From Xanthostigma xanthostigma (lineage: Eukaryota > Arthropoda > Insecta > Raphidioptera > Raphidiidae), in NCBI GenBank assembly GCA_963575645.1, contig OY754475.1:930001-994000 (forward strand): a DNA stretch of 64,000 nucleotides, given 5' to 3'. Position numbers and translations under genes: made by a program. This document shows positions 12,099 through 43,284 of this stretch, in pieces (the first letter of the stretch is position 1; every line of letters starts with the position of its first letter). Under the pieces are notes generated by a model that searched no databases, was not told where the DNA came from, and saw only the letters and a list, made by a program, of their open reading frames with translations.

Positions 12099-12131
12099 AG
12101 GTAATATCTAAATTATCTAATAAGGTGTCGC

Positions 12132-13203
12132 TTAGTTGAACTTGCATTTTGAGAAATCCATTTCCGGATGCTGTTCCATAAACCTAAAACAAAAAAAAAC
12201 GAATCATACCCTACTAATACTTTCAGGGGCTAATTGGCTCAACTATGCTGGCCCGGGAGCATAATTGGGTACAATTTTACTGAATTAACGCTTCCGAATA
12301 ACAAAAATATTAGGAGCACTGTGGTTTGAATCTAATAAAAAATAGAGAATAGTTACTTCTTACCACAACAAGTTTATTAGTGGATGTACATGAGTTTAGT
12401 GTATTGCTGAAGATGAGAGCATAGCTCTCGAAATGTACATCCACTAATAAACTTGTTGTGGTAAGAAGTAACTATTCTCTATTTTTTATAACACTTCCGA
12501 TTTTGGCCTTTCGAGGAATTTTCTTATAACGGGATGGTGTCGATGCGATGTCGTGTTTTTTGTGCAGTGAAAAGGGGAAGACGTTTCGGGGAATAGTTTT
12601 TGCGTTTTAAAATTCTCCAAAATCGGAAGCGATAATTCAGTAAACTGTAACCCATAATTGTATCCACTGTGGACAAAAAACGCATTATTAATTTTACCTT
12701 AGAATTATATCTGTCAAACTTACTTTTTGATGACTTCTTGTTTTTTCTGTTCGTCGCTCGTCGGTAGGCCGAGCTCCTTCTGTCGTTGATCGTACATCAT
12801 TTTCTCGACAAGGCCTCGAGTCTCTCCGTCCAAGTCCGAAAGTTTCGACGGTTCCGGTTGTATTTTCTTCGTGCTAATTTCCGGATCGGTCGTGACCAGT
12901 TTCGACCACCAGTTCACTTTATTTACCTGTACGGGAGAACACGACACTGTCAGTACAAAAGTTTTTACGGCCACCGCGCGAAAGCATGAGTAGCGCGCGA
13001 CGACAAACCTTTTCTAAATTGATGAGAAGAGAATTGCCGTCTTCGATGACCCACGTCGACTCTTCGAGTTTAATTTCGTATTCTAGCTCGCCGTCGATGA
13101 TGGGAGTTTGCCCCTTGACGCCGCATTTCAGTCGCTTCTTGCCTATTTCGACGACGACGTCGCGCTGTTTCGCTTTGAACGATATTTTCAACGGAACTCG
13201 AAT
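12132..13203 (-). CDS. nudC: NudC 3' exons 5-7
   Basis: Exon 5 (13009-13203, residues 181-245) is most of the CS fold. Exon 6 (12724-12926) holds the conserved WWSKLV...DPEI and [20 protein letters not shown] segment. Exon 6 could read straight to an in-frame TAA, but AAAAA|GTAAGT there is a strong donor, and splicing to 12183 restores the family C terminus ending KCKFN. A hairpin repeat lies in the last intron at 12335-12489. Confidence 0.93.
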
Positions 13204-16200
13204 CTGAAACAAAGAAAAAACATTGGTTGTCTGTAAAGTCGGTTTACGGACGATAGTGAAGCGATCCAAAAATTATTTTTATTTTTTCCTTTTTTTTATT
13301 CTCCTGTATGTAGGCAAACATAGTTCCCTTCCATAATCTATTTGCCTACATGCAGGAATATTTTACTAATTGATTTAAATTTGATGTTTACATAACATTT
13401 TTAATTTTTATAACTTTATAATAAAAATGAAAGATACACCGGACTGGCATACCTTAGCGTGAATATTTGTTTCGTAAAGTCAGTAGTTCGCGATCCTTAT
13501 TTCCTAAACGTTCCTTAACAATCCGTAAAATTCTATTCAATTTTTTTTTAATCTTTACAATCATTGTTGTTTTTTTGTTACTATTTGAATTCTGTTAATT
13601 TTGAATAATTCAATCCTTGTAAAATTATTTTGTTTATAATTACTGCAGAAGTACTCTTTTTTTTTTAAATATACTATTATTTTGTTAAATTGTGTTTTTT
13701 CTTATATTTTTTTTGATCTACGGGGCGTTTATTAATTTTCTTTTTATTTTAAACGCCACAATAGTTTTACGTGATAACGTATTCCGCTCGAATATCATAT
13801 TTAATAATACATTACTGCGCTCTCGCTTGCACGCACAGGGTCAGGCGGAACGTTACACTTTTCGGAACGTTACACTTTTTCGTGCATGCAGCCGGTGTTT
13901 CATCAATTTATAAGACGTTATCACGTCAAAAAAAAGAACCCAACATGAAAACATATGAACGTTGTGCGCGCGACATTCGATTGTTATCTGGTTAATTGGT
14001 GTCAAGGCGTGCAAAACAGATGAACGGACACGCGATGAGAACAAAAATTACTGAATAGCCACCGATTTATTTAATTATTGTCATCTTATAGAGAATAATT
14101 ATAAACAATATGATAATGGCGCACTTGACCCATAAAAAATACACAGTACTTAGGTACATAGAATTTTACGTAGGTACTCCATTAAAATTGGTAAATTCAA
14201 TTTCCTGCAAACGCGCCGATAAAAAAATAATTGAAAATGCAAGCCTGAACGAATAATGCAATATAATATTGTAATGGAATCTCTCTTTCGGTAATGTTGT
14301 TGCAATGAAGTGCAACTTCTTTAGTGCCGTGTCTGTAATTTTCCCGTCACGTTAAATGGGAAATTTTTATTTTATTTATTTATTTAATTCCAAAAATATG
14401 TGATGCAATAACATAGGTATAGTACGTGCCACGAATATAAAAGGCTCGGAAGTTAGATGCGAATGCAGGCTTGCGCTTGTACAGTCTGTTGAAAAACTAC
14501 AAACTCGCAACTGAACAAAACTAACATAGCAATAACAACTTGACAATAGCGTACTCGACTGTAAAGCAGGAAAGCGACAAGTGACAAAGGCAACGAGCGA
14601 TCACGGCCAATCACTGACGAGCGCAATTTCCGTTCAGGTAGCTCTGGGAGGTGGTGGGAGTATCAACGACTCTAAAATGTGCCTTTGCGACGCTGTTTGT
14701 GACTAGCTTCCGAACCTTTTAGATCCGCGGCGCGTACTATGACGCAAAATGGATAAACGCGTCAAGTTTCCGTCGAGCGATTTTGAAACGTACGACGTAC
14801 GATCGTGATTTTCCATTAATTTAAAGCTAAACACGAGCGCGTTGTCGAGCCTAAGATCTGAGTAAACAGCATAATTATCGATAATATGCAAATGGCGCCT
14901 TCTGCATCTTCACGCATCGGTGAAATGAAGTCAGGGCCGTTACGTTCACGCGAGGTCCGCGGTTCGATTTCCGCCGTGCGCATCATTTGAACCGCCCAAA
15001 GAAGACAAAATCATTATACAGGCGATCTTTTTAAAAGTGTCTTTAGGCCGGGACTTCGTCAGACTCGCTTAGACCGGCGGAGGCATAGAATTTGGCGACT
15101 GCGCCCAATTGACTTGTTCAGTTGGTCGTTTTGTTCTTGTCGATGACGTTTGAAGACGACGATATTTCAGTATACGGCCCCCAAAAAATCGCCGCCGACG
15201 TTTAAAAAATAAAAGAAAACGTCGTTTTTGAAGTGAAAACTTCTTTAGCGGCGTTGTACACTTTTTTTGTAATGGGTAAAAAATGTTAAACTCGCGTCAG
15301 GAAAAGTAAGAACTGGGTGAGACTCTCTAAGTGATAGTAGTTGCCAGATATTTTTTATACAACGTTAGACATCTAGCGTTGAAATATCGTACATAAAAAT
15401 GCAATCTATGATACAAACCATTTTGATCGAAAATTCGTAAGACGTTAATATTCAAGTTTTCACTTCTGCCGGCACTCCCGGAATGCAACCCGTCTTTTTT
15501 TCACGAACGACGCCGTTGCGCTCGGCTGTTTCGATGTCCGAAGCCGCATTTATTTTTATTGGCGACGAATTACGAGCCTCCTCTAAATTCAATTCCGTGA
15601 CCAGGTCGGGAGATTCAAACGCTCCGATAAGAACCCAAGAACAATATAATATATTGTCGAACACCAACGGCAAAGTCAAGGCTACGTTATTGAACAACAC
15701 GCTCTGCGCGGTCACTCGATTCGTGAACCGTTTTTACGCGTGCCGTTTCTTCATTAGCATGCGTACGAAGTGCGTAAAGAACAACAGTCCTCTGTCCATG
15801 CAAGTCAAACCGTAACGGAACGTCTGCACGGAGTTCTGTTTTCTTGCCGAATACGTCTGAACGCTCAGACGCGACGATGTGTTTTTCTGTGTCTAACAGC
15901 GGTAGTGAGTTCAGAATAGAGAATACAATCCCGGGATCCCGGCCGTTTTCTGGTCCCGAAAATCCTGGAATCGTACTTGGCTGATCTCGGGATTTTCGGG
16001 ATTGCCAAAAACAGATCTAGTTTGCATTCCGTAATCCGTTGCGCCTTGACAATTACCTTGCCTAGATTATATTAATATTATTTATTACGCATAACGACAA
16101 AAAACAATCCTTAAATACGCGGAACGATATGTAAGAATATGAAATCTCCAGATCCTGAAGTACAAGTACAAAATGAATCAGGGTTGGCAAATATTATCAG

Positions 16201-25200: not shown

Positions 25201-28200
25201 AGGTCCAGAGCCGACCGTCGCATTTTCTACGTACCGGAAACACAGAAAAAGTCTATACGTTGGTTAGGATCGAGCAAACATAGAATGCCACAATTATTAT
25301 TGAAGGAGATTTATTTGGTTGAGGAACAATAGAAATAAGTTTTACCAAAGTATCGCTTGTGTCCAACGTTTCGAAAATTATATTTTCATCCTCAGAGCCT
25401 ATGAACATGTATAGTATTTAATTACATTAATATTATATGATTTACAAATCAGATAAGCCAAACATAGGCCCTGAAGATGAAAATCTAATTTTTGAAACGT
25501 AGGCCACAAGCGATACACTGGTAAAGCTTATTTTCAATTGTTCCTCAACCAAATAAATCTCCTTCAATACATATTTTGAAACAAAACTTCTACTAACAAT
25601 TATTATTACTCGCTTTGTTGAAAATTGAAAAATTAGGGCTTCCAAGACGTTGCGGCAAGGATGAACTCTGACGCGCCACGACGACATGAAAGTACCCGTT
25701 GAGATCGACATTTTGACGTCAGTATAGATGACATAAAACAATCCCAAAAAATGACCGGAAGTTACGTCAATATCCGATGATCCGGCATAGGATAACTGAC
25801 GTTGGGTTCTCCGTCTATAAGTGAATTGAAATTTCTTGGAAACTGTTTCGATACCACAATTTCGATTAAAACGAATGTCATTATACAATTTCTAGCTGAC
25901 CTTTTCACCGTCCGTGCATGGAATTTTATCGGCAAGGAGATCTGTCATCTAAATTAAAACACTAAAATAAATCGTATTTTGATTGTTTACTATAATATAA
26001 CACCGCGCGCCATTTATTAGATTAATATCGTGGCCGTGTACGGTGAGGTCTCCAATTTATAATATCAATAGTCCGCGGTTCGAAACGACATCGGACTGAC
26101 AACCTTTGGCAAACAAACAAACTGCACGGATCCGGGTTCGGAAAGTTCTTCTGAATTGCCAAAAAAAAAGTCCAATTGCAATTTCCGGCTCTTTCTCCTC
26201 GCACGCTTTTGAAGACGTTTTTTGGGCAATAGCTCTAAAAACTCGACGCGAGGTTGTTTTTAATTCTAATTATTAGTAGTGTTTTTATAGCGGTCATTAT
26301 AATTTATTAATAACGCCGCGCCTTGCTCTGAAATTTATTTAATTACATTATATTCATAATTGTTGTGTTAGTCGTCGCACTTAACCTTGGACACGACGCA
26401 CACGCACTCCGATGAACCGTTCTCAATGACATTTAATTAGTCGACTACGCACTTTTACGACGCCGAAAATGACGATCAGAAAAAAAAGAAGTTCTTAATA
26501 CCTATATACACTTAATTTTGACATTGATCTATCATTAGACGCATTAATATCAGATTATTTTTTTTTTAAAATTCATTTGAGGTCGCCAACTTTCAGGGTT
26601 ACCTGGGCCTAGTACCGTATCATACTTTCAATATGTTATTAACTTATTAGATTAGACCGGCTCTTAAAAATTGGTAAAGCCCAAGATGGATAACTGTCGC
26701 TTCTGTAAAGAAGTAAAAGAAACTGCTGAATGTGAAGCAGTGCTTTCCAAAAGGCTGCTGTATCTTAACAGGTCTTTTCCAAAGCCTGAGGACATATGGA
26801 TAGCATCCCCCAGTAAGGTAATAAGGTTCATAAAAAGCATTCTACCAGACTGTGAATAATACTATTTAGGGGATGCACAAAAGATCTTTAAGGTCGCACT
26901 GTTTGTGAGATATAAAGTGTCTTATCACCCCAAATAAATCTTATCTAATCTAGATTAGACCGGCGTATAACACAATGAGTGCATCTGACAATCGCTGGTC
27001 TTCTATGTGAATCCCTTCATAATTTAACCCCAGTCCGGAAAACGATTTCCGATACACTTTAGTACCTTGCTGGGGGTTGCTCCCCACACTTCATCAGGTT
27101 CATATATTGCATTCTTTTGGAAAGACACTGATTGCCCAAGGGCAAAGGAGTTTCTTTTGCTTCTTACTCACCTTTGAAATGTGGATGCCTTATAGAGGAC
27201 AAGATTTTTTAATTATTTCTCTTATTTGTCAGTAATAAATATGCCATTTTAAATGTAAATTGTTGAAAAACAACAGCGCATCAGGGTTAAAAAACACGTA
27301 AACAAACGTGCATCGCTATATCGCATTTTTATAACATTCCAAACATTAAAACAGCTATAGTCGTTCGACTATTTCCTATAAATTCAAATCCGTTTTTTTT
27401 AATTGTATTAGAATTAATTAAATGTTGTAATGCGTCTGAATGATGCTTCACTTCCCAGCAAAGGTCGTTAGCATAGTAAAAATTAATAATGCATAATCAA
27501 TAAAAAAATAAATTCCAATAACTAGGAAACTGGTATATTTCAAAAAGTCGTCAATGAATATCGTGTCGCCGGAGATACGGCGGCTCAGTGATTTAAGAGC
27601 TATGGAATGCGTTGAAAGATCGAAACCGAAATCAATAATATGCTAATTGAGTTGTGTAATAAGCCGGCGGTTCTCAAACTTTTAGCGCGTGTCGAAAACA
27701 TCCGTTTTTGGTACGCGTTTTTTTTCTTCTAGTCACGAAAAAATTTTGTACCTATTTCTCCGTGCTTTTTCATTAAATTTAGGCTACTTATACTTCTTTA
27801 CAGTAAGGGGGTCTAATTTGGAGATCGACCAATATATTTTACGATCTATTACAAGCCCCCAAGTATCACGTTCTAATCCGAGAGCTGGCAAAAACCTTAA
27901 ATGGATTTTCAGTTTTATGAATTTCAAATATAAATCGGTACTGGCCCGGGTAACCCGAGTTGTTGGTGGCTTTAAAAAATGGAAAGGAATTCGAAACGAA
28001 TAATTTACTTTACTGACAATTATTAAAATTCTAATTATCTGAAGATTGACTCTATTCAATGAATAGAGTAACTGTGATCCATTGAAGTTAATGATGAGTA
28101 TTTGGAAAGAATACGATCCTTATGCCACGGAATTCTTTCCAAATACTCATCATTCTAATTATCATCATTAAAATTATAATTTGACATGAGGATCGTTAAA

Positions 28201-41998: not shown

Positions 41999-43056
41999 AC
42001 CTGAGATTATTTTTTTTAAGTAGCATCGGAGTATTTATATTAATAGTTTTATTATTTAAGTGAGCTTTTAATGAGCAATAATTTTAGCATAAACAGCGTA
42101 TAGATTGGCTACACTAGAATAATCACATCACACCGATTCCTCATTTGTTATTCTAAAATGGCGTATAAGCACATTCATTTGTTAAGTATTTTTGTTTTAG
42201 GATTATAAATATCTAAAATTAAAAATTTTATGTAAATTGTTTCGTTAGTGTTATAAAAGTTCAACTTGCAAACACACATTCTTATGAAAGTTATATTTTT
42301 CTGTCATATTTTTTAAAAATTTTAAAATTGTTGCTGTTTTTATTTCAACAAATTCGGGATATTCATAAAGCCATACGTAAACACTAAATATTTAAGTCAC
42401 TGACAAACTATTGTAAGTTTTTACTAGTTACGTAATAATTAGTTATTTAATTCTTATTTATTAAGCACGTAATTTGTATTTGTTTGGTATGTAATCAATT
42501 TTTAAAAAAATAAAAAGTGTAGTTCTTCGTATAAATAAAATAATTTTTGATGCACACTTCTGTTTTTTCCATACCTGTCGATTGTCGATGTCGATTGACG
42601 CTCCGATTAGATCGTTGTATTAAATCTATCGTAGAAATAATAAAAAATCGCCTACGAAGTCTACATAAAAAATGGTTTACCTAAATGGACATGTCTAACA
42701 ATTAATAAAACAGTTCATCGAATATTTTACTTTATTTTTTTTAAGTACGTCGATTTTTTCACAAATAAAATAAAATAAGCGATTAATTTTTCTGCAACAA
42801 TATATTTTAATTAATAATTTAATAATTATATTGGTTAATTATTACTTACAATTTATTACAAAAAAAATATATAATGAAAACAGTATAACTCAAGAATTCT
42901 CCACAAAAAAAAAATGTTTATGTATTATACCCAACTAGCCATAGGACAGTTTGTCAACAATTTTATCACGCCTTAAGGCTTTAAGCATTTATTTAATGCA
43001 ATTTGGGTTATCATAATTAATCTCGGATGCAATTACTTTACTAAATGCTTTGCAAA

Positions 43057-43276
43057 TAAAATATAGTTTAAAAAAAACTAAAAAACACGCTTTATATCGG
43101 ACTAAAAAGTAAAAAATAATTGTTTTAAAATAAGCTTAAAAAGCGTGGGGCGCTTTGTTCCACATTTTCGTACATCGAGCGCCCAACGCTTTTTAAGCTT
43201 ATTTTAAAACAATTATTTTTTACTTTTTAGTCCGATATAAAGCGTGTTTTTTAGTTTTTTTTAAACTATATTTTAT
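43057..43276. repeat. 220-bp hairpin with ~90-bp perfect arms
   Basis: The arm ending AGCTTAAAAAGCGT (to 43146) and its reverse complement starting ACGCTTTTTAAGCTT (43186) pair for about 90 bp outwards through TTTTACTTTTTAGTCCGATA. A smaller stem GGGCGCT/AGCGCCC lies in the loop. Almost no mismatches, suggesting a recent insertion or conversion. Confidence 0.9.
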
Positions 43277-43284
43277 TTTTCACT

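Follow-up and report, generated by a model that had tools for sequence, protein, structure and literature searches.

A foldback with a hammerhead motif in an apparent nudC intron of an insect as a probable head-to-head pair of Penelope-like element cDNAs

LINE-1 twin priming joins two cDNAs, one from each target strand, in inverted order, and Penelope of Drosophila virilis is an inverted-pLTR (pseudo-LTR) element of the same kind as those considered here. Minimal hammerheads of Penelope-like elements (PLEs) have reportedly been described by Cervera and de la Pena in 2014 and by Lunse et al. in 2017. For Adineta vaga PLEs, the available parts of PMC3846280 describe a 31-bp tail on one inverted pLTR and duplications of 8-10 bp, mention D. 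virilis Penelope as an inverted-pLTR case, and leave the origin of inverted PLE repeats open or ascribe it to self-priming. For Anolis Poseidon PAc, the parts of PMC11167929 covered here report that both target strands are cut and extended in vitro, that two internal start sites bound the tail, that a hammerhead lies upstream with uncleaved RNA as the main template, and that the start site used in vitro shows no strand difference; in these parts the head-to-head repeat is not derived from dual-strand extension. According to excerpts of PMC6155905 and PMC7761336, a proper helix III is missing from PLE hammerheads, which may work in dimeric form. The ribozyme, the tail and the inverted repeats of PLEs are already known, and the twin-cDNA rule described below is new: the open-licence literature searched, mainly titles and the beginnings of abstracts, yielded no account of a twin-cDNA origin of PLE repeats, and the part of PMC12910113 covered contains no pLTR or hammerhead text.

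The foldback studied here lies in the window (the whole 64,000-nt stretch of Xanthostigma xanthostigma DNA analysed), where a sequence-only reading had reported a hammerhead-like core in the loop of a long inverted repeat inside NudC. The arms (12335-12391 and 12433-12489) are exact reverse complements of 57 bp around a 41-nt centre, and the 176-nt foldback stretch has a fold energy of -98.6 kcal/mol (z -18.05), with none of 200 shuffles as stable. The loop follows the order first described, with CTGAAGA (12407-12413), GAGAGC-ATA-GCTCTC and GAAA (12430-12433), plus one extra T after CTGAAGA. The adjoining exon matches NudC structures (E 2.5e-20) and the CS domain, and on our own reading the foldback appears to sit in a nudC intron. 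The long foldback itself stands, with perfect arms, apparently in intronic rather than coding sequence and within a larger unit (12298-12489). The nudC exons lie within 12100-13270 of the window on the minus strand, the last exon having been identified by eye. Another imperfect palindromic repeat (12261-12297 and 12623-12658) encloses the element, whose insertion split off the left arm of that outer repeat, and the last nudC intron is, by reading, the likely stretch holding both repeats.

A search of the 623-Mb genome with the 176-bp piece returned at least 84 match rows, 40 being scored of 796 candidate places, and comparison with 39 further fetched loci placed the limits of the true repeat unit at 12298-12489, with a tail of 36-37 nt on the left side only. 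Aligned with 34 colinear copies, the window copy shows few substitutions, and the one variable point is where the left arm meets AGTTTAG; target-site duplications flank nearly all of the aligned copies. A core varying freely between conserved arms, which would have spoken against the original proposal, is not what the alignment contains, for all 35 rows retain CTGAAGA, GAAA and the two strands of stem II intact, with loop changes in three; these rows were picked as best matches to the window, which makes the conservation weak evidence.

The hammerhead-like core is indeed repeated across the genome, much more often than chance would allow. Allowing up to three mismatches, the 27-base loop core has 1383 + 1406 matches in 623 Mb (reversed-pattern control, 0), often as minus/plus pairs among the 100 matches listed. 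Those 100 matches make up 64 loci, all on contig C1, and extrapolation from this ratio to the total of 2,789 gives about 1,800 loci; short PLE 5' copies are estimated to number a thousand or more. Two samples were used, sample A with 62 scored of the 64 loci and sample B with the window and 36 best-match loci (37 in all). In sample A, a minus and a plus arm both passed the score in 49 of 62 loci, which form the scorable pairs, and only one arm passed in 13; among these 13, at least L070 and L075 contain second-arm remnants and others look single-armed. Because sample A demands an intact core, copies shorter than U41 (U denotes a position in the RNA) are under-represented in it. The reference for scoring outer ends stops at U97 and U133, so that larger values could not register, and the tail-score threshold of 0.5 separates cleanly from a background maximum of 0.43 in 1240 shuffled trials.

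The window element can be traced to a PLE through the sequence that it has in common with autonomous relatives at two loci, L049 and L108. At L049, a head-to-head pair with the same U sequence, RT-like and GIY-YIG reading frames are themselves arranged head-to-head, with the same tail as the window element and a 13-bp duplication; the RT pieces fall below the Pfam cut-off. At L108, a tandem PLE, RT and GIY-YIG both lie above the Pfam cut-offs, and the search match has an open frame of 804 aa. The layout of this locus, read as that of the parent element, runs from the endonuclease end through the 3' UTR to TATATAATG (TATA) at -32, U1 (AGTTTAG), the hammerhead (core U15-U41), U97, U133 and the ATG at U139, so that a pLTR between tandem ORFs and a 30-40-nt tail before the ATG are both found there. 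The tail sequence of the window also occurs directly before this ATG, with one mismatch in the stretch tested. U1 would be the PLE mRNA start site. Read on this map, the window element appears to have been copied from the initial ~133 nt of a PLE mRNA into a nudC intron or, more exactly, to consist of part of the first 97 and first 133 nt of the transcript facing each other (Table 1).

Table 1. Parts of the element in the window, with predicted ribozyme features
Feature	Position	Strand	Basis or remark
Left target-site duplication TAACGCTTCCGA	12286..12297	.	Direct reading; right copy differs at one base; exact shared part 7 bases
Tail, RNA positions U134-U98, only at left end	12298..12334	-	Locus comparison
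Left arm, putative tailed cDNA, U97 down to U41	12335..12391	-	End scoring: inner end 41, outer end 133
Putative non-templated G where the two cDNAs join	12392..12392	.	End scoring
Right arm, putative untailed cDNA, U1-U97, complete from presumed RNA 5' end	12393..12489	+	End scoring, L108 comparison
Minimal type I hammerhead (predicted), U1-U61	12393..12453	+	Sequence; stem II covariation; same arrangement at other PLE loci
Hammerhead stem I (predicted)	12393-12406/12442-12453	+	Sequence; unsupported by free-energy folding
Hammerhead CUGAAGA	12407-12413	+	Sequence
Hammerhead extra U	12414	+	Sequence
Hammerhead stem II	12415-12420/12424-12429	+	Sequence; covariation
Hammerhead GAAA	12430-12433	+	Sequence
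Hammerhead stem III palindrome AUGUACAU (predicted), starting at last A of GAAA	12433-12440	+	Sequence; unsupported by free-energy folding
C17	12441	+	Predicted cut 12441/12442 = U49/U50
Right target-site duplication TAACACTTCCGA, first base common with element end	12489..12500	.	Direct reading

The right arm contains a complete type I reading of the hammerhead, comprising CUGAAGA, the extra U, a 6-bp stem II, GAAA, AUGUACAU and C17, and the strand after C17 can pair with RNA positions U4-U9. In standard numbering, the hammerhead core consists of C3 U4 G5 A6 N7 G8 A9, G12 A13 A14, A15.1-U16.1 and H17. All of these are present in the window, with C at position 17, and the one deviation is the extra U after A9. 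The sequence-only reading had used the long arms as the third helix of the ribozyme, assigned G to the cleavage position and regarded the inverted repeat as a transposon terminus. These three points were not borne out: the motif lies whole in the right cDNA (U1-U61) with a short stem III of its own, the base at 17 is C while the G is the junction base between the cDNAs, at a junction that differs between most copies, and the repeat would consist of two mirror-image reverse-transcription products. A type III reading of the hammerhead, in which the arms would form stem III, was also rejected because it places the variable junction base at position 17. Like the minimal PLE hammerheads in the available text of PMC6155905 and PMC7761336, the window motif has the type I order, the core and a reduced helix III, and it appears to be of the known PLE ribozyme type, with putative activity. 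The predicted stem III is the 8-nt palindrome AUGUACAU, whereas other PLE loci in the same genome have ACGU, and pairing of the palindrome would probably need a dimer.

A PLE pattern, CTGANGA-N16-GAAACGTT, which leaves out the window's own family, has 2524 + 2546 = 5,070 genome matches (controls, 0 and 1). Across 33 distinct sequences (32 distinct versions from the first 100 pattern matches listed, and the window's), stem II contains 31 two-sided compensatory cells vs. 7.8 in shuffles (0 of 500), with a covariation score of 0.569 vs. at most 0.395 when slid. The search pattern fixed the core, so this covariation bears on stem II only, and a large share of the rows differ by point changes within a small number of families, a kinship that the shuffles ignore. 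Stem II cells are paired in 86.1% of cases, indicating that some variants have decayed. The covariation argues that stem II is a real RNA helix under structural constraint, in line with the initial suggestion of a hammerhead. Four other PLE loci were chosen from matches of 35-45% identity; on visual inspection three have the same arrangement upstream of the reading-frame start, their stem II sequences differing and, as in the window, one extra base following A9, and their shuffled sequences gave 1, 1 and 0 matches of 3000, while the fourth, L110, has no intact core.

The remaining helices receive less help from folding and from models. The full hammerhead fold as drawn has -0.8 kcal/mol. The best fold has -14.0 kcal/mol and retains stem II together with a 6-bp helix, U4-9/U50-55. 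In the window copy, U50-61 is paired to the left arm (p 0.999 on folding), and the 57-bp foldback would sequester the ribozyme strands. Rfam gave nothing at gathering level in the window, and its hammerhead models gave no match up to E 10 in the stretches searched, only unrelated weak matches or none appearing; the model search had been put forward at the outset as a check on the ribozyme, and its adverse outcome holds in part.

The scored pairs share an asymmetry. In sample A, 47 of 49 pairs have one tail, none has two and two have none (p 4e-12 for 47 of 49 against an expectation of one half), and in sample B one tail is present in 36 of 37. Neither tailless pair is a clean exception, since L066 was fetched with only 8 nt outside the left arm and both arms of L107 continue into another PLE sequence. 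The L107 arms (900-1190) run on mirror-wise into a PLE-type hammerhead sequence resembling the one at L109, as though copying had taken in both a second PLE and a stub lying within it. Outer ends in sample A fall at U94-U97 or U130-U133, as limited by the reference, and ungapped extension at the untailed ends of pairs reaches U101 at most.

Inner ends cluster at the other side of the unit. Seventy of 98 in sample A lie within U-1..U5, 34 exactly at U1, and four upstream of U-5; 20 fall at or past U10, 12 of them on the 47 tailed arms and 8 on the 51 untailed ones, including seven at U30-U42, beside hammerhead stem II, whose 3' foot, U41, is also where the left-arm cDNA of the window stops. Within pairs, the positions of the inner ends are uncorrelated (Spearman 0.17, p 0.26, n=45). 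The extra base expected with a capped U1 was C in 12 of 24 cases against a fair expectation of about 8, as the scoring excludes A; the excess is not significant, and an extra C as a cap trace of U1 is only suggestive. Junctions are distinct in 45 of 49 sample-A pairs and in 27 of 37 in sample B, where the 10 repeated junctions could have arisen by either microhomology or shared descent. Some junctions carry filler, which at L056, L060 and L101 is palindrome-like. The inverted PLE arms of L048 and L081 are separated by 1.9 kb and 0.7 kb of other sequence, which may have been copied from joined transcripts.

In sample A, 45 of 49 pairs have a duplication, which measures 12-14 bp in 40 of 49; the most common length is 12-13 bp. 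With both samples pooled and the tail placed on the left (73 usable of 86 pairs), the target logo has AAC before and GTT after the duplication, with raw frequencies of 48% for C at -1 and 49% for G at +1; these two positions carry a mild bias from the duplication-extension procedure, and -2/-3 and +2/+3 are free of it. The target is symmetric, AAC-N12-GTT.

We propose that the foldback is probably a dead-on-arrival PLE 5' stub, formed by two cDNAs that were primed separately and joined head-to-head. The PLE mRNA would start at U1, 32 nt after the TATA box, with the hammerhead in U1-U61, and reverse transcription would start at two sites shortly upstream of the ATG, ~U97 and ~U133. An AT-rich target would be cut on both strands, ~12 nt apart, by the PLE protein, probably acting as a dimer, and each target 3' end would prime one cDNA, one from U133, leaving the 36-nt tail, and the other from U97. 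Both cDNAs would then reach the RNA 5' end or stop short, and their ends would be joined through small overlaps or filler, giving an inverted repeat that is arranged head-to-head, carries a single tail and has a 12-13-bp duplication. The sequences show the PLE origin, the one-tail pattern, the end positions, the duplications and the mostly unique junctions; the mRNA start, the dimer, the strand assignment, the order of the steps and the RNA molecule copied are what we infer. The one-tail rule, the fixed ends, the duplications and the symmetric target would all follow from two cDNAs, one per strand of a staggered cut, begun at two fixed sites on the RNA.

A wider proposal, for which we judge the case evenly balanced, is that obligate twin target-primed reverse transcription may be the canonical mode of PLE integration, with a symmetric dimer on AAC-N12-GTT and two start sites 36 nt apart on one mRNA, one per strand. 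The one-tail head-to-head repeat would then be the normal product, and stubs would flood the genome, the start sites lying near the mRNA 5' end. Twin priming in LINE-1 is a variant form; here it would be the rule, its start sites being fixed and its cDNAs overlapping. The Adineta vaga elements and Penelope, in the available parts of PMC3846280, likewise combine RT and GIY-YIG, tandem or inverted pLTRs and a one-sided tail, whereas here most sampled copies are 5' stubs and duplications of 12-14 bp predominate. Dual priming gives a better account of the inversion than self-priming does. In contrast to Anolis PAc, nearly every scored insertion here uses each start site once, and the parts of PMC11167929 covered leave the one-tail pattern unexplained because the start site shows no strand difference there.

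The alternative that fares best keeps twin priming but has two RNA molecules or two independent RT complexes supply the cDNAs instead of one dimer on one RNA. We regard it as rather unlikely, though it agrees with the independent variation of the inner ends within pairs and with the finding that both arms can be full length; independent complexes should often yield two-tail and no-tail pairs, and two tails occur in 0 of 49.

Self-priming, in which a single cDNA or antisense RNA folds back and is copied into an inverted repeat, has been suggested in the available text of PMC3846280 for head-to-head rotifer PLE repeats with palindromic junctions, and the palindrome-like filler noted above at three loci would suit it. 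A folded-back copy should, however, terminate at the starting point of the first arm and so have either two tails or no tail, and in one-tail pairs the other end lies near U97; moreover, a short arm usually has a partner that still extends to the U1 region (one arm short in 14 pairs, both in two, neither in 29). We therefore consider self-priming improbable. A related candidate, snap-back at hammerhead stem I, was rejected: on our own reading the second arm should then start near U62, and only L095 reaches U56.

Still less probable is a metazoan retrozyme, a small non-autonomous element spread via circular RNA cut out by its own hammerhead, even though the size range and the type I hammerhead fit the available description in PMC7229834. 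The copies begin at U1 and not at the cut site U49/U50, and only one of 98 inner ends falls in the cut region U48-U52, a count in which the second arm alone is informative since the core was required. A genome-wide search with an exact pattern that required both arms to end close to the cut found three loci, all of which end inside the AUGUACAU palindrome and none at the cut. Few sampled loci repeat the unit directly; L050 does so clearly, L081 and L084 partially. Hammerhead-cleaved RNA does not appear to be the template of the stub insertions. A DNA transposon of the foldback or MITE kind, mobilised by a transposase and carrying a captured ribozyme, is hardly credible, for although the copies are dispersed, short and palindromic with target-site duplications, their ends are asymmetric and not mutual inverted repeats (one 36-nt tail), which led us to reject a MITE, their junctions differ in most copies, and their sequence is the 5' end of a PLE.

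Under the twin-cDNA reading, many young stubs with readable joins turn PLE integration into a statistical question, answered by one tail per insertion, ends at the putative RNA start and a symmetric 12-bp target. The role of the hammerhead is placed in a similar light: stem II is constrained, yet cleaved RNA is not apparent as a template, in agreement with the lizard in vitro result in the parts of PMC11167929 covered. Genome annotations may list foldbacks of this kind as MITEs.

Larger PLE copies also occur in opposed orientation. Among 150 matches listed, opposite-strand PLE RT copies within 8 kb are head-to-head in 19 cases and tail-to-tail in two. At C4:51799654-51806938 (G000), two tandem PLE RT copies stand head-to-head with two more, an arrangement expected if both cDNAs copied a tandem transcript. 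Within the window itself, a 101-bp inverted repeat at 43054-43278 is 99% complementary around a 23-nt centre, and a second, more diverged PLE-type foldback at 25303-25566 has hammerhead-like cores on both strands, the plus core at 25471 and the minus core with its 5' end near 25395.
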